NCBI GenBank assembly: GCA_029233985.1 | Contig: JARGOK010000001.1 | Coordinates: 151,740-215,739, forward strand | Source: Candidatus Altimarinota bacterium | Lineage (GTDB): Bacteria > Patescibacteriota > Gracilibacteria > JAUYGZ01 | Reading direction: 5' to 3' | DNA length: 64,000 nt | Part shown: positions 999 to 49,521 of the stretch, in pieces | How the letters are laid out: each line of letters begins with the position of its first letter | How positions within the stretch are numbered: the first letter of the stretch is position 1 | The notes under the pieces: generated by a model | What the model was told of the DNA's origin: nothing | What the model saw: the letters and a program-made list of their open reading frames with translations, nothing else | The model's database searches: none | Program-made: the position numbers and the translations under genes

Positions 999-3158
<2,160 letters not shown>

Positions 3159-32084: not shown

Positions 32085-34244
32085 ATGAAAAAAATATTTG
32101 TATTTGCAGCACTATTTCTTGCCATTTCACTACAACCCATTGCTCATGCATCATTCATACAAATATTACCTGGAAATGAATTTTCAGTTGGGGATGAAGT
32201 CAAGATTCGAGGATATGACTTTGGAGATGGTGATTCAGAATATACATTTTTATGTTTTAATAGTGGAAATTATTGTTTTGCTCCAGATGCTGACTTTATT
32301 GATTTGTGGGATGACACCAAAATTGACTTCACGGCTCCAATTCTTGATGAGGAACTTGTTAACTTTTCAGGCTCAATTCATATATTTGGGAAGGCATTAG
32401 TAAAAGATTGTGAATCATGTACTCCAAAATGGATAAGTAAGTCAATTGACAGCGTCTTGTACAAAATACTACCGACTGTTTCACATATTACTGATCAAAA
32501 TGGAAATATACTGAATGGGGCTTTTCCAGGATCTGTGATTGACATCAACGGGTTTTTCTTCGGTGAAAATAAATACAGGATCATGTTTTCAGGTGAAAAA
32601 GCGGAAATTCTATCATGGTCAGAAAGAACAATCAGGGTGAAGGTTCCATTGTTACCAAAGGAAGCCGCTCTTCAAAACACTATTGTTATAGAAAGAAATA
32701 AAACAACTAAATCTAAAGAATTTAATATGGAGGTATATTCTCCAATTGACAATACAAATGATGAACTATCTGGAGTTCAGGACTATTTATTAAATGCAAA
32801 AATTGATAAAATGTGGCAAATAATTAAACCAAAATCAAATGTTGTTGTAGCGATTATTGATGATGGTGTGTACTTAAATCATAGTGACCTCAAAGATGCC
32901 TTTTGGACAAACAGCAATGAAATAATAGGAAATGGCATAGATGATGATAACAATGGATACCTTGATGATAAATATGGATGGAACTTCATTGATGACTCTA
33001 AAAATGTAGATGTTTTGACCTCTCACGGTACATTTACAGCTGGAATAATAGCGGCTAATAAAAACAATAATATAGGTATTGCTGGAATTGCTGCTGGGAA
33101 AGCAAAGATCATGCCACTCATTGCGTGTAATAAATATGGATGTATTGATGAAAATGTCATTGATGCAATTTATTACGCTACAAATAATGGTGCTAGGGTA
33201 ATCAACCTAAGCCTAGGAGGAACAAATATGACTTCATATAATGCCTCATACAATGAGGCATTAAAGTATGCCTCTGATCGAGGTGTGGTAATTGTAATTG
33301 CAGCTGGAAACGGAGATACCAATACAAAAGGCATTAATACTACTGAATTTAAAATATCTCCAGTATGTAACGAATCAAATGACAGACAAATAATTGGAGT
33401 TGGGGCAAGTACTTCAGATAATAAATATTTAACTTCATGGACTAACTATGGTGACTGTGTTGATATATATGCTCAAGGTGAAAACATTGTAAGTACATCT
33501 GTATTAGGTTATGAATATGATTATGATGATGGCACATCTTTTTCTGCTCCAATTATCACTGGAATAGCAGCATATGTTTTAAGTGCATATCCAGAAATGA
33601 GCAATACTGCATTTCACATCTATCTGACAAACAACTCGGATACTCAAATTGTGAATGCTGAAAAAATGGCAAAATCAATACTTGAAAAGTACTCTGCCAA
33701 TAGTGATATTGGAGCAAAGTGGAGTGATAGAGATGAGGTGGTTCAAAATGACCTTTTTCCTGATATAAATAGTACTCCATTCAGGCAGTCAATAAACTCT
33801 TTATCCAAAAGAGGAATTATTTCAGGATATCCTGATGGTTCTTTCAGGCCTCAAGAAAACATCAATCGAGCTGAATTCGTCAAAATTATTGTTGGTGCAG
33901 TTCAGATGGATACAAATGGATCAAATTGTTTTTCAGATGTCAAAAACCAGTGGTTTTCTAGTTATGTTTGTTCCGCAAAATCAATAAACATAATAGGAGG
34001 ATATCCCGATGGATCTTTTGGTCCCTCGAAGAGTATGAATGTTGCTGAAGCACTAAAAATAACCCTAAATGCATTTAAAGTATGGACTAGGGATGAAAAA
34101 AGCAATGAACAATGGTATCAACCATTTGTGGAGAGGGCAAAAGAAATTGATATCTATCTCGATAGCTTTTCAAGCACATCCAAAAATATCAATAGAGGTG
34201 AAATGGCTGAGATAATTAATAAGCTATTAATCCAACAAAAATGA
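32085..34244 (+). CDS. secreted subtilisin-like protease with IPT/TIG and SLH domains
   Basis: From ATG at 32085 (719 residues) there is a signal peptide (KIFVFAALFLAISLQPIAHA), two IPT/TIG-like beta domains (about 25-110 and 125-215), and an S8 peptidase domain with Asp in VAIIDDGVYLNHSD (near 258), His in TSHGTFTAG (near 314), Asn in VIAAGNGD and Ser in GTSFSAPI (near 485). Three C-terminal S-layer-homology motifs follow (about 558-605, 618-665, 675-715), each with a GYPDGSF or NRGE type signature. It should sit on the S-layer or wall and cut external proteins or peptides. The earlier start at 32043 adds residues before the signal peptide and is unlikely. Confidence 0.9.
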   Translation: MKKIFVFAALFLAISLQPIAHASFIQILPGNEFSVGDEVKIRGYDFGDGDSEYTFLCFNSGNYCFAPDADFIDLWDDTKIDFTAPILDEELVNFSGSIHIFGKALVKDCESCTPKWISKSIDSVLYKILPTVSHITDQNGNILNGAFPGSVIDINGFFFGENKYRIMFSGEKAEILSWSERTIRVKVPLLPKEAALQNTIVIERNKTTKSKEFNMEVYSPIDNTNDELSGVQDYLLNAKIDKMWQIIKPKSNVVVAIIDDGVYLNHSDLKDAFWTNSNEIIGNGIDDDNNGYLDDKYGWNFIDDSKNVDVLTSHGTFTAGIIAANKNNNIGIAGIAAGKAKIMPLIACNKYGCIDENVIDAIYYATNNGARVINLSLGGTNMTSYNASYNEALKYASDRGVVIVIAAGNGDTNTKGINTTEFKISPVCNESNDRQIIGVGASTSDNKYLTSWTNYGDCVDIYAQGENIVSTSVLGYEYDYDDGTSFSAPIITGIAAYVLSAYPEMSNTAFHIYLTNNSDTQIVNAEKMAKSILEKYSANSDIGAKWSDRDEVVQNDLFPDINSTPFRQSINSLSKRGIISGYPDGSFRPQENINRAEFVKIIVGAVQMDTNGSNCFSDVKNQWFSSYVCSAKSINIIGGYPDGSFGPSKSMNVAEALKITLNAFKVWTRDEKSNEQWYQPFVERAKEIDIYLDSFSSTSKNINRGEMAEIINKLLIQQK

Positions 34245-45143: not shown

Positions 45144-46265
45144 ATGTCAGATAAAATACCACACTTTGAAACTCAAGAAATCAGTTCTATTGACGGTATT
45201 ACGCTAAGACTACCCACTCCTGAACATTTTACGTACTTGTCTGAAGAATGTCGTGAACAACTTCTCAATTGCTTGCGGAATGCTTATAAAGTCATGACTG
45301 GACATTCAGTCCCAAAAAAACAGCTTTCGGCATCCTACTCTCTTGGAAGTCTTCGAATCCCTTCGCCTGTGCGATTTCAGAGTGTTTTGTCAAAACCTAC
45401 AAATACCCCTGATACCCTCATATTGTTTCGTGAAAGACTGGAGGAAGTGTTGATTTGCCTTGAGAATATCGAAGGAGTGGATATCGAACTAGGTGAAGAT
45501 TCAGCTCTTTCTGCTGAACACATCGAACAAATTGTGAAAGAGAAAGCTTCTGATATAAATTCTAAACGAGCACCACTAGAGATTCCTTTTGTAACTGCAG
45601 AAGAACGTGAGCTTTTGAAAAATGGTCAGATGGTGCCTGTTGTCCCAGATTGGTATAATAAAACGACAGAATCTCTTAAAAAAAAGAGTGCTATGCAATC
45701 CTTAGTCCCTCCTACAGATGATGCGGAAGCATCTTTTCTTCCGATTATTAAAAAATTCAAAGGGGAGCACCCTTCAAAGTATGGAAATATGATTGCCCTA
45801 CTAGAGGACGAAATAAAAGAATGGAAACTCGCAAAAGATGGTCTTGCAGGAAGCCATACTCAACAAGTTCTGAGGATTTTGGAAGCAAAAAAGACCGAAT
45901 GGAATGATATAAAGAATGCTCTGGAAGAAGAACAGCGAGACAAGGTTCAGAGAAGGAGAAAACAACAAGTGCCTGTTCGCAAAGGAGCATCACTCAATTC
46001 ATCAGGACTTTTTAATGCTCTGCAAACAAATCAAGAGATTGCTACTGGTATTATCCAAACGATACTCTCTTATCAACATCCAAAAGGTTCTTCAAAAAAC
46101 GAAATTATCCTAAATCAGATCACAAGCTTGGATATGAAAATTACTACATTTCAGCGTCATCTCAAGTGTGATGAGAATGAAAAGATGAAAAAGCGACTGA
46201 AGGATATTATTGAAATACTTCAGAACCGAGTGAAGCTCTGGAGACATAATACCCAAGGAATGTAG
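45144..46265 (+). CDS. hypothetical protein, lineage-specific
   Basis: 373 residues, soluble, mainly helical. The N-terminal 90 residues carry LRLPTPEHFTYLSEECREQL, the middle is charged, and two related helical segments occur near 195-265 and 310-370 (EEIKEWKLAKDG and LKDIIEILQNRVKLW): each repeats a pattern of a long helix with E/K pairs. This looks like an internal duplication of about 95 residues, not verified. No family recognised. It has its own near-consensus promoter, like other unknown proteins in this window. Confidence 0.65.
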   Translation: MSDKIPHFETQEISSIDGITLRLPTPEHFTYLSEECREQLLNCLRNAYKVMTGHSVPKKQLSASYSLGSLRIPSPVRFQSVLSKPTNTPDTLILFRERLEEVLICLENIEGVDIELGEDSALSAEHIEQIVKEKASDINSKRAPLEIPFVTAEERELLKNGQMVPVVPDWYNKTTESLKKKSAMQSLVPPTDDAEASFLPIIKKFKGEHPSKYGNMIALLEDEIKEWKLAKDGLAGSHTQQVLRILEAKKTEWNDIKNALEEEQRDKVQRRRKQQVPVRKGASLNSSGLFNALQTNQEIATGIIQTILSYQHPKGSSKNEIILNQITSLDMKITTFQRHLKCDENEKMKKRLKDIIEILQNRVKLWRHNTQGM

Positions 46266-46310: not shown

Positions 46311-46322
46311 TCTGATATTGAA

Positions 46323-46378
46323 GGAGTATTTATTTTAGGATATGATGAGATTGAAATATACTCATCTATGAATACTCC
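46323..46378 (+). promoter_or_regulatory. stem-loop around the leader-peptide start
   Basis: GGAGTATT (46323-46330) pairs with AATACTCC (46371-46378), and inside GATGAG (46344-46349) pairs with CTCATC (46361-46366). The structure would bury the start codon of the leader peptide and may tune its translation. Confidence 0.5.
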
Positions 46379-46418
46379 TCTCTACAGTTTTGGAACCTTT
46401 TTTTACTTCTCTTTCTGA
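46368..46418 (+). CDS. pheL: phenylalanine leader peptide, 16 residues
   Basis: The frame reads MNTPLYSFGTFFYFSF and stops at TGA (46416-46418): five Phe and two Tyr in sixteen residues. It lies 172 bp upstream of pheA and directly before an attenuator hairpin set, the position and make-up of enteric PheL. Ribosomes stalled at the Phe codons when charged tRNA-Phe is scarce would change folding of the RNA that follows. The gene has no Shine-Dalgarno, in keeping with the genome. Confidence 0.75.
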   Translation: MNTPLYSFGTFFYFSF

Positions 46419-46485
46419 GAAGGATTCCTTGCTGTGTGAATATTCATACCTATAGAATTCTTCTCAATTACTGAGAGGTTTTTTT
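46406..46485 (+). terminator. phenylalanine attenuator (1:2, 2:3 and 3:4 hairpins)
   Basis: Segment 1 CTTCTC (46406-46411) pairs with segment 2 GAGAAG (46417-46422). Segment 2 as GAGAAGGATTC (46417-46427) can instead pair with segment 3 GAATTCTTCTC (46455-46465) over eleven positions with one G-U. Segment 3 as CTTCTCA (46460-46466) can pair with segment 4 TGAGAGG (46472-46478), followed by seven T. The 2:3 and 3:4 structures exclude each other, the logic of amino acid attenuation. Stalling on the last Phe/Tyr codons would cover segment 1 and free segment 2 for the antiterminator. Confidence 0.75.
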
Positions 46486-46589
46486 GTCGCTACGCTCGAT
46501 CGATGCAAACATTCGAATTCCACGCGAATCTACAAATACTCAAATTAAAAGCTCATCAGATAATGTCCTACTACCTAAAACCTTGCTTT

Positions 46590-47489
46590 ATGTCAGACAA
46601 TTTAAAAATAGAACGTGACCAGATTGATAAGGTCGATCAGCATGTTTTGGAACTCCTCGCTGAGCGACAAACCCATGTGAAAAAGATTGGAGAGATCAAA
46701 CAGGAGGAGGGGTTGAATGTGTATGATCCGAAACGAGAACTCAATGCTCGAACAAAACGCAAGCACTCAGCCAAAAGCCTGGGGCTTGATCCGCTGCGAA
46801 CAGAAGTGATATTCGAGCAAATTGTTCTTCTCGCACGTGATACCCAAAGTCGCGAGGAAGGGAGTAATAGTTCTCTTTTTAAGGGATTAGGGGTCCAGGG
46901 GCGTGACCTCCGAGTCGGCGTTATGGGAGGGATTGGGAGCTTTTCAGAAGCAGCTGCACTGCAGCACTTGGGATCTCAGGAAATTCACAATTATGAACTT
47001 CAATATCCTATTTCTTCTGAGAATGTGTTGAAGGATTTGAATGCCGGTAAAATTGACTTGGGGATTTTCCCAATTGAAAACTCAACAGCTGGAATGGTCA
47101 CGGAGAGTATTCGAGCAGCGAGTCAGTATACCTTTGATATCATTGATATTTTTGATTTTGATGTGGAGCATTGCTTGATAGTACTACCTGGTGTGAAGAA
47201 AAAAAATATCACTAAGGTGATGTCTCACCCTCAAGCCTTGAAACAATGCAAAGGCTACCTGAAACAAGACTTGCCGAATGCGGAACTCATCGAAGGAACT
47301 GATACTGCAGAAGGTGCAAGGATCTTGGAACAGACTCCAGAAGAAACAGGATTGGCGGTCATTGCGTCGAAAAGATGTGCAGAGCTGTATCACTTGGAAG
47401 TCCTGGAAGAAGGGATTCAGGATCTCGAGGTGAATTATACGCGGTTTATTGCTGCTACGAATGGAGATCTGAATGCCATCTCCAAGTAG
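46590..47489 (+). CDS. pheA: bifunctional chorismate mutase / prephenate dehydratase
   Basis: Converts chorismate to phenylpyruvate for phenylalanine. The N-terminal AroQ-type mutase (about 1-88) has ERDQIDKVDQHVLELLAER and VYDPKRE. The prephenate dehydratase domain follows (LRVGVMGGIGSFSEAAAL, then IFPIENSTAGMVTES, and VMSHPQALKQC) through about 292. The C-terminus is short: there is no clear ACT domain, so feedback control by Phe may be absent here and replaced by the attenuator. The two domains are joined by an in-frame family A repeat (46860-46901). The frame is open from 46503; the 29 extra residues do not match the family, so I chose 46590. Confidence 0.93.
   Translation: MSDNLKIERDQIDKVDQHVLELLAERQTHVKKIGEIKQEEGLNVYDPKRELNARTKRKHSAKSLGLDPLRTEVIFEQIVLLARDTQSREEGSNSSLFKGLGVQGRDLRVGVMGGIGSFSEAAALQHLGSQEIHNYELQYPISSENVLKDLNAGKIDLGIFPIENSTAGMVTESIRAASQYTFDIIDIFDFDVEHCLIVLPGVKKKNITKVMSHPQALKQCKGYLKQDLPNAELIEGTDTAEGARILEQTPEETGLAVIASKRCAELYHLEVLEEGIQDLEVNYTRFIAATNGDLNAISK
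46860..46901. repeat. palindromic element (family A) forming the PheA domain linker
   Basis: GGGAGTAATAGTTCTC then TTTTTAAGGGATTAGGGGTC is a reverse-oriented family A copy. It is translated as about 14 linker residues (EGSNSSLFKGLGVQG) between the mutase and dehydratase domains, a site where insertion would be tolerated. Confidence 0.75.
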
Positions 47490-47564: not shown

Positions 47565-48410
47565 ATGAACACACCAACTATATCCATCATCGGAGGCGAA
47601 GGAAAAATGGGAAAAGCCTTTGCAGACTTGTTTGAAGCCCGAGGTATTGATGTCCTCGTGGCTGACTTGAACACAAAACTCACCCCCGAGCAGGCAGCTA
47701 AAAAAGGCGATATCGTTATTTTTTCTGTACCCATCTCAAAAACTGTGGCGGTGATCAAAGAACTTGCCCCATCGGTAAAGAAGAGTAGTTTGGTTGCTGA
47801 TATTACTTCTATAAAATGCCCAGCGATTGAAGCGATGATTCAGCACGCCCCTGAGAGCTGTGAGGTGCATGGCTTTCATCCCATGTCGGGACCTGGGGGA
47901 ATCACCGACTTGAAGAAGACTGTGGTAGTGTCATGCCCTGTACGATCTGGGAAGTGGAGCGAATGGATGCTAAAATTTTTCACAGAAGAAGAAGCCATCA
48001 TAAAGGAAACAACTGCTGAAGAACATGACAAGATGATGAGTATTGTCCAAGGAATAACACATATTTCTTCCATTGCTACTGCTATGGCTCTCAAAGAACT
48101 GGGGATCAATGTCGAAGACACCTTGGAGTTTTCTAGTCCAGTGTACAAGCTCCGCTTGGATATGATTGGGCGTGTCCTCAGCCAGAGTCCACAGCTCTAT
48201 GCTGAAATCGCCGTAGAAAATCCGCTCAACAAGAAAACAATCACTGCGTATCATGATGCTCTGAAGAAATTATTAAAATGTATTCAGAAAAAAGATGAGT
48301 CGTCGTTTATACAGTCTTTTGAGCAGGCTGCAGATCACCTCGGTGATTTCAAAGAAGAAGCCTATCAAAAGACGAGTGAGTTGATTCAACGGAGCAAGGA
48401 CCTCTTGTAA
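47565..48410 (+). CDS. tyrA: prephenate dehydrogenase
   Basis: Converts prephenate to hydroxyphenylpyruvate for tyrosine. The N-terminal NAD(P) domain has SIIGGEGKMGKAFADLF and VADLNTK. The catalytic part has GFHPMSGPGG and a helical dimer domain with VQGITHISSIATAMALKELG. Length 281 matches stand-alone TyrA; there is no fused mutase or ACT domain. It lies 75 bp after pheA and 97 bp before aroF, and the three probably form one transcript controlled by the Phe attenuator. Confidence 0.92.
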   Translation: MNTPTISIIGGEGKMGKAFADLFEARGIDVLVADLNTKLTPEQAAKKGDIVIFSVPISKTVAVIKELAPSVKKSSLVADITSIKCPAIEAMIQHAPESCEVHGFHPMSGPGGITDLKKTVVVSCPVRSGKWSEWMLKFFTEEEAIIKETTAEEHDKMMSIVQGITHISSIATAMALKELGINVEDTLEFSSPVYKLRLDMIGRVLSQSPQLYAEIAVENPLNKKTITAYHDALKKLLKCIQKKDESSFIQSFEQAADHLGDFKEEAYQKTSELIQRSKDLL

Positions 48411-48507: not shown

Positions 48508-49521
48508 ATGATTATCTGTATGAAACAAGGCGCTCCAAGAACGCAGGCAGACCACGTTATTAAAGCCGTCGAAGACGCTGGACTAGAACCTGCACCGCTC
48601 TTTGGAACCGAGCGAACTGTTATAGCCGTGCTCGGTGATGAACGGGAACTCGATATGAAAAAATTTAAGGCAATGGAAGGAGTTGAAAATGTGATGCCTG
48701 TTCTTCGCCCATATCAGCTCGTCTCTCGTGAATCTCACCAAGGCGATACCATCGTTGATTTTGGAAATGGAGTAAAAATTGGAGGGAAGGAGGATATAGC
48801 TATTATGGCGGGCCCTTGCTCTGTTGAAACTGAAGAGCTGATCATGGATGTGGCTGAACATGTGAAGCAAAAAGGAGCTCAGTTTCTCCGTGGAGGAGCC
48901 TTCAAACCTCGCACTGGCCCGTATTCCTTTCAAGGACATGGTGAAGAAGCCCTAAAGTGGATGAAGAAAGCAGGAGAAAAGACGGGATTGAAAGTGGTGA
49001 CTGAAGTGCTCGATACTCAGCATGTGGATATGATGTATGACTACATCGATATGTATCAGGTAGGAGCCCGAAATATGCAAAATTTTGAGCTCTTGAAAGC
49101 TCTAGGGAGAAAAGACAAGCCCGTTCTGTTGAAAAGGGGAATGAGCGCAAAGTTTAATGAGTTTCTTCTCGCTGCAGAATACATTGCCAAGGAAGGGAAC
49201 TCGAAGATTGTTTTGTGTGAAAGAGGGATTCGAACTTTTTGTGGGTACTCTCGAAACACGATCGATATCAATGTGATTCCTTGGGTAAAAAAGATGTCTC
49301 ATCTGCCAATTATTCTAGACCCGAGCCATGGAACAGGATCATACGAAATGGTCCAACCTATCGCTATGGCAGGAGTAGCAGCAGGTGCTGATGGGATCAT
49401 GATGGAAGTCCATCCACGACCTGAGCAGGCTTGGTCTGATGGTGATCAGTCGATCAAATACGATACGCTGGACACCGTGCTAGATGGGATACATAAGATC
49501 GCTGAGGTGGTGCGGAAATAG
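48508..49521 (+). CDS. aroF: DAHP synthase (type I-beta)
   Basis: Condenses phosphoenolpyruvate with erythrose 4-phosphate, the first step of the shikimate pathway. The N-terminal about 75 residues form a ferredoxin-like regulatory domain ([20 protein letters not shown]), as in Thermotoga-type enzymes. The barrel then shows [40 protein letters not shown] and [10 protein letters not shown]. Length 337 fits. The regulatory domain usually senses Tyr or Phe, so flow may be controlled here as well as by attenuation of the operon. Other shikimate genes are not in the window. Confidence 0.95.

Follow-up and report, generated by a model that had tools for sequence, protein, structure and literature searches.

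Leader-peptide attenuation was first a matter of two phyla: in 2010 such systems were known in Proteobacteria and Actinobacteria only, and the His leaders of bacilli, in which a leader and attenuator precede hisS or hisZ, were then added (Naville and Gautheret 2010, PMC2965389). A first-pass annotation of the locus described here held that PheL-type attenuation is described mainly in Proteobacteria. It is indeed known there, but leader-peptide attenuation is also on record for Actinobacteria (PMC1262725) and for Firmicutes (PMC2965389). In C. glutamicum the aroR leader (Neshat et al. 2014) has Phe-Tyr-Phe codons, precedes an operon that includes aroF and acts by ribosome-mediated attenuation; Tyr availability had no effect on transcription there (PMC11802643). 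How Patescibacteria regulate their genes has been little explored. In a 2024 review the mechanisms of their differentiation are described as completely unknown, and weight is laid on translation and on their unusual ribosomes (PMC11665869). A literature search for leader peptides or attenuation together with Patescibacteria or the Candidate Phyla Radiation, which took in few subscription journals, returned no report; this is weak evidence that leader-peptide attenuation is new for the group.

The window, that is, the whole 64-kb stretch of DNA analysed here, belongs to genome G000; G001 and G002 are two relatives of the same family, each from another genus. Upstream of pheA the window carries an element (Table 1) that is very probably a classical ribosome-mediated transcription attenuator of the pheA-tyrA-aroF operon. 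It combines a leader ORF rich in codons for the operon's amino acid with a mutually exclusive antiterminator and terminator and a U-run, the features by which attenuators of this class are recognised; that a stall frees segment 2, while a ribosome at the stop codon blocks it, is a result of calculation. The first-pass annotation had described a 16-residue leader with a CTTCTC/GAGAAG hairpin, an antiterminator of eleven positions (46417-46427 with 46455-46465) and a mutually exclusive terminator (46460-46478) with seven T, all upstream of pheA-tyrA-aroF. Each of these parts was found again where it had been placed, and the gene order is borne out by the annotated domains. The terminator stem in G000 is short, with seven pairs of which three are G-C, and CTTCTC is common to segments 1 and 3, so that 1:4 pairing is possible as well. 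A promoter-like site, TTGACT-17-TAAACT, was also found by consensus scan 5' of the G002 leader; the same scan found none 5' of the G001 leader.

Table 1. Coordinates of the pheA element in the window (G000), of its operon and of related loci. Every leader peptide listed ends at a stop codon.
Feature	Location	Strand	Basis or remark
Candidate promoter TTGAAG-17-TATGAT	46318..46346	+	consensus scan; RNA start predicted about 10-15 nt 5' of the leader ATG
Helix P0, 5' arm AUGAAUA	46368..46374	+	takes in leader start codon; nascent-RNA folds; shuffles 2/300
Leader peptide ORF MNTPLYSFGTFFYFSF	46368..46418	+	ORF; homologous leaders in G001 and G002; ATG 46368-46370, stop TGA 46416-46418; 16 residues, 5 Phe and 2 Tyr
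Segment 1, CTTCTC	46406..46411	+	within last leader codons; 1:2 hairpin with GAGAAG 46417-46422
Segment 2, GAGAAGGATTC	46417..46427	+	begins within leader stop codon
Helix P0, 3' arm UAUUCAU	46441..46447	+	between segments 2 and 3; nascent-RNA folds; shuffles
Segment 3, GAATTCTTCTC	46455..46465	+	pairs with segment 2 (antiterminator; 11 continuous pairs, one G-U); also terminator 5' arm
Intrinsic terminator, 3:4 hairpin CTTCTCAATTACTGAGAGG and TTTTTTT	46460..46485	+	hairpin 46460-46478, seven T 46479-46485; terminator in 3/3 family genomes
pheA, chorismate mutase-prephenate dehydratase without ACT domain	46503..47489	+	Pfam; homologues
tyrA, prephenate dehydrogenase	47565..48410	+	Pfam; homologues
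aroF, DAHP synthase with N-terminal ferredoxin-like domain (PF18152)	48508..49521	+	Pfam; homologues
G001 leader MNASNNNWFYFYFFSA	L002 from 2485	-	homologous element before pheA-tyrA-aroF
G002 leader MSISKAFYSFYFWNFSA	L003 from 1355		homologous element before pheA-tyrA-aroF
His leader MIQKLSHHHSHFIHLI	L082:1994-2100 (G000:C3 about 355393-355500)		antiterminator and terminator directly before hisS
Thr leader MNTVSTTSTTTTTLLSPEVV, G000	L087 from 3144	-	before thrS, with terminator
Val leader MKSFQTVVVVQKKTLV, G000	L102 from 3034	-	before valS, with terminator
trpE-type gene leader	L137 from 3084	-	one of three family genomes
trpE-type gene leader	L135 from 3012	-	one of three family genomes
trpE-type gene leader	L136 from 612		one of three family genomes
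f66 Phe attenuator, leader MITKRFFSFFFFTSLT	L072 from 2166	-	calculated switch; shuffles 2/200
f66 Phe attenuator, leader MNKRFFNFLPARSFFAKSGFFFTSLA	L078 from 2435	-	calculated switch; shuffles 1/200
prfB with TATCTTTGAC	L144 about 1456-1530		frameshift site
prfB with TATCTTTGAC	L145	-	frameshift site

A homologous element precedes pheA-tyrA-aroF in all three family genomes, whose PheA proteins are 59-69% identical. Phe, Tyr and Trp make up 7/16, 7/16 and 7/17 residues of the three leaders. The sequences of the elements differ while their architecture is equal: CTTCTC, TGAGAAG, the second CTTCTC, GAG and the T-run are invariant in the alignment, and the aromatic codons and the stop hold the same place relative to segments 1 and 2. 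The extensions of these invariant blocks vary yet still pair (GATTC with GAATT in G000, TTGT with ACAA in G001, AG.TTGTT with AACAA..CT in G002), such that 2:3 and 3:4 pairing are both kept. The full elements have z-scores of -3.3, -3.1 and -3.2. For covariation, proposed at first pass as a check, three sequences give limited ground: their RNAalifold consensus has one doubly changed pair only, too few for a claim of covariation. Relatives lacking Phe-rich leader ORFs or alternative pairing upstream of pheA had been named as the finding that would speak against attenuation; all three genomes have both.

It is very unlikely that the hairpin merely serves the gene upstream (45144-46265) as its 3' terminator and that the Phe-rich ORF arose by chance. 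That gene does share the strand of the element and stops 195 nt short of the terminator, and an aromatic-rich short ORF is not in itself rare. Of 582 ORFs in the window that open with ATG and span 10-30 codons, MNTPLYSFGTFFYFSF is the sole one to pass a cut-off of at least seven aromatic residues and at least 35% aromatic content; a terminator follows it within 110 nt. Simulation of 20 sequences of 64 kb (second-order Markov) gave about one such ORF per sequence, which is the number expected by chance. None of the simulated ORFs, however, had a terminator, and a candidate promoter sits between the upstream gene and the leader. The upstream neighbours differ, with a tRNA gene in G001 and an unrelated ORF in G002, whereas leader, segments and terminator keep their order. 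This conservation in three of three family genomes is stronger evidence than the chance-ORF count.

The class to which the genome belongs includes families with in-frame TGA (recoded) beside families with the standard code, a mixture that suggests a class of Patescibacteria resembling the Gracilibacteria. Pairs of ORFs in the window overlap as ATGA at 34241 and 41709, pheA of the family relatives contains no in-frame TGA, and prfB of both G000 and G001 has the classic TATCTTTGAC (CTT-TGA-C) +1 programmed frameshift site. TGA is therefore a real stop here.

The effect of a ribosome on the leader was modelled by blocking nucleotides to 11 nt past the A-site codon, as a fixed footprint, and folding the remainder. 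In all three genomes a ribosome at Phe, Tyr or Trp codons up to codon 12 or 13 gives the antiterminator, with stalls at codons 8-12 leaving it in every genome, and a ribosome on the stop codon gives the terminator. For G000 the terminator has an ensemble probability of 0.00 with the ribosome at Y6 or F8, 0.14 at F11, 0.18 at F12 and 0.56 at Y13, against 1.0 at F16 or the stop codon. When the sequence 5' of the terminator was shuffled 300 times, with dinucleotides and terminator kept, a switch of the same size arose in 8 shuffles for G000 and in none for G001 or G002. The full G000 RNA without a ribosome is near balance: the terminator probability is 0.47, and the minimum free energy fold includes the antiterminator (-29.9 vs -28.5 kcal/mol). 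RNA folding, another check proposed at first pass, thus reproduces antiterminator and terminator as alternatives between which, in the calculation, ribosome position decides.

Each of the three genomes has Phe and Tyr codons in the zone where stalling is effective, and two have Trp codons there as well. 'Phenylalanine attenuator', as the element was first called, is correct in that Phe is read, but Tyr and, in two genomes, Trp are read too, and 'aromatic attenuator' therefore fits better. An operon holding pheA, tyrA and aroF would fit a sensor of several aromatic acids. Sensing of Tyr by the pheA leader is a prediction of the model; C. glutamicum aroR responds to Phe only, despite its Tyr codon.

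Control of upstream termination by T-box-type elements is frequent for amino acid genes in Firmicutes (PMC2494555), and a T-box or small-molecule riboswitch would sense tRNA-Phe or phenylalanine directly, without translation of the leader. No such family reached its gathering threshold in the window, however, and none appeared in a relaxed scan of the element. The element starts at most about 25 nt from the candidate -10 site, which leaves no room for a T-box stem I, and every genome keeps the aromatic codons and the stop at a constant place with respect to segments 1 and 2. This reading is more improbable still than a chance ORF beside a terminator. Just as improbable is an action of the leader ORF on pheA translation, by reinitiation or coupling, instead of on termination. 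Leader ORFs near genes can boost translation via reinitiation, but the same work places reinitiation at distances of about 10 nt and attenuation at longer ones (PMC4833913). Here 84 nt separate the leader stop from pheA as annotated, and about 170 nt separate it from the likely start at 46590; the terminator lies in this interval, and it is on the terminator that the computed switch bears.

In ribosome-mediated attenuation, the favoured reading, RNA polymerase would start just 5' of the leader ORF and a ribosome would translate the leader. With ample charged tRNA-Phe and tRNA-Tyr (tRNA-Trp in the relatives), the ribosome would arrive at the stop codon and cover segment 2; segment 3 would then pair with segment 4, and transcription would end at the U-run. 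When aromatic aminoacyl-tRNA is scarce, the ribosome would stall at codons 6-12 and leave segment 2 free, allowing the 2:3 antiterminator to form and the polymerase to enter the operon. Conservation in three of three family genomes and the modelled switch support the earlier suggestion that ribosome-mediated attenuation controls aromatic amino acid synthesis. Since attenuation requires transcription-translation coupling, the elements predict such coupling in this reduced lineage.

A further helix, P0, involves the start codon. In each of the three pheA leaders, folds of the nascent RNA before segment 3 is made pair the first 12 nt with the spacer that parts segment 2 from segment 3. The pairings are AUGAAUA/UAUUCAU, UGAA/UUCA plus CAAACAACA/UGUUGUUUG, and UGAGCAUCA/UGAUGCUCA, and P0-type pairing was reached in 2, 2 and 0 of 300 shuffles, respectively. 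Such a helix is also present in the thrS (2/300 shuffles), valS (0/300) and G001 trpE (10/300) leaders, and is absent from those of hisS (201/300) and G002 trpE (82/300). A value of 0.64 is reached by 5% of random window ATGs and by 4/168 ATGAA sites. Pairing of the start codon in six of eight leaders has a binomial probability of about 4e-7, a figure that is too optimistic as the three pheA leaders are kin. P0 crosses the antiterminator and therefore excludes it. With no ribosome on the leader, P0 and the 1:2 hairpin would, by the folding model, shut the start codon to new ribosomes and favour termination.

A Shine-Dalgarno-like site occurs at 1 of 22 gene starts of the window; the leader ATG in G000 has none upstream, like most window genes. 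With Shine-Dalgarno sites nearly absent, start codon accessibility may matter much. A TATAAT-like box lies about 20 nt before the start of several window genes, which suggests very short 5' leaders.

The true start of pheA is probably the ATG at 46590 (MSDNLKIERDQ), since nothing in the relatives corresponds to the first 29 residues of the longest ORF. The PDT domain of PheA ends at residue 317 of 328, 11 residues before the C-terminus. An evident ACT domain had been noted as missing at first pass, and Pfam agrees, finding none in PheA of G000, G001 or G002. That this domain is absent while the attenuator is kept suggests a shift to the RNA level in how Phe synthesis is controlled. In characterised relatives the ferredoxin-like domain of DAHP synthase takes part in end-product control; by analogy, it may be an end-product sensor here. 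Chorismate synthase and trpE-type genes are present, so the pathway is supplied with substrate.

The start-codon helix is one refinement beyond the first-pass annotation, and further attenuators in the genome are another. For the hisS, thrS and valS leaders of G000, the terminator probability changes by 0.98 to 1.0 between a stalled ribosome and one on the stop codon (2, 0 and 1 of 300 shuffles, respectively). No such leaders were seen before the G001 and G002 orthologues examined, a set without hisS of G002. The trpE-type gene has a strong modelled attenuator in two of the three family genomes: the G001 and G002 leaders, MISLLSTFHDSWWTHSF and MTVTDFKLTWWNNSLRR, contain tandem Trp codons (15/300 and 6/300 shuffles), and the G000 leader, which has just one Trp codon and switches weakly (37/300), follows a TrpR-like gene. 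Targeted scans and inspection by eye found no attenuator at pheS, serS, leuS, proS, glyS, metS, cysS, tyrS, trpS or aroC. Upstream of ileS in G000 (L101, minus strand) and G002 (L099, minus strand) lie a GGTGGTA motif and a terminator; the region is T-box-like, with no Rfam match. It is a tentative idea that attenuation is a main mode of amino acid control in the lineage and that, in a genome nearly devoid of Shine-Dalgarno sites, it has gained a shared helix between the start codon and the region before segment 3, which closes the leader to ribosomes and enforces termination when none has loaded; the idea draws on the Phe/Tyr, Trp, His, Thr and Val leaders of one genome or family.

A covariance model built from the three pheA elements was run on 353 genomes of the class. 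It matches G000, G001 and G002 at E < 1e-16, by construction, and its second match in G000 is the hisS leader (E 0.02); no further close copy of the pheA element was found among the 353 genomes. Within the class the Phe element is therefore a family-level trait: no recognised leader precedes the more distant pheA genes (L005-L007; family f32, 45-50% identity). A search of contigs for related loci gave no useful relative, and phages gave distant pheA only. Elsewhere in the phylum, Phe leaders precede the prephenate dehydratase genes of a distant family, f66 (Table 1); at a further f66 locus (L075, near 1320) a leader frame before prephenate dehydratase has no start codon. Weak matches to the model also occur in TGA-recoded genomes of the class. 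One of these recoded genomes, G054, has a Phe-rich leader MAHTNFSFYFFDLSVCEG (L083, about 2585-2690) and an Ile-rich leader MTPRHNIIIITSLHAEG (L084, minus strand, about 2730-2860). Their tails and terminators are similar; the short proteins encoded downstream match nothing in Pfam, and the modelled switch is weak at best.

The switch is thus probably of a known type in an unexpected lineage, an ultra-small bacterium of the Patescibacteria type. The elements are testable amino acid sensors and possible native inducible control elements, a tool named as missing for Patescibacteria (PMC11665869).

Among known systems the closest is E. coli pheL-pheA. Rfam Phe_leader (RF01859) is the best-scoring family for all three elements, with full-length matches in the correct orientation; their scores of 18.9, 24.8 and 19.4 bits (E 0.03 to 0.6) lie far below its gathering score of 55. 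By the model, the element would work like E. coli pheL, yet it stands outside Rfam membership. Shared with E. coli are a Phe-rich leader, the 1:2, 2:3 and 3:4 alternatives, a U-run and a chorismate mutase-prephenate dehydratase gene; unlike in E. coli, the leader reads Tyr and Trp too, tyrA and aroF follow pheA, and PheA has no ACT domain. RF01859 has an outer helix comparable to P0, but P0 covers the start codon, which is unpaired in the Rfam consensus. The hisS attenuator is comparable in design with the His leader of bacilli, which belong to a different phylum. The aroR leader of C. glutamicum likewise joins a mixed Phe/Tyr leader to a DAHP synthase operon, but that operon is a different one and is found in Actinobacteria.
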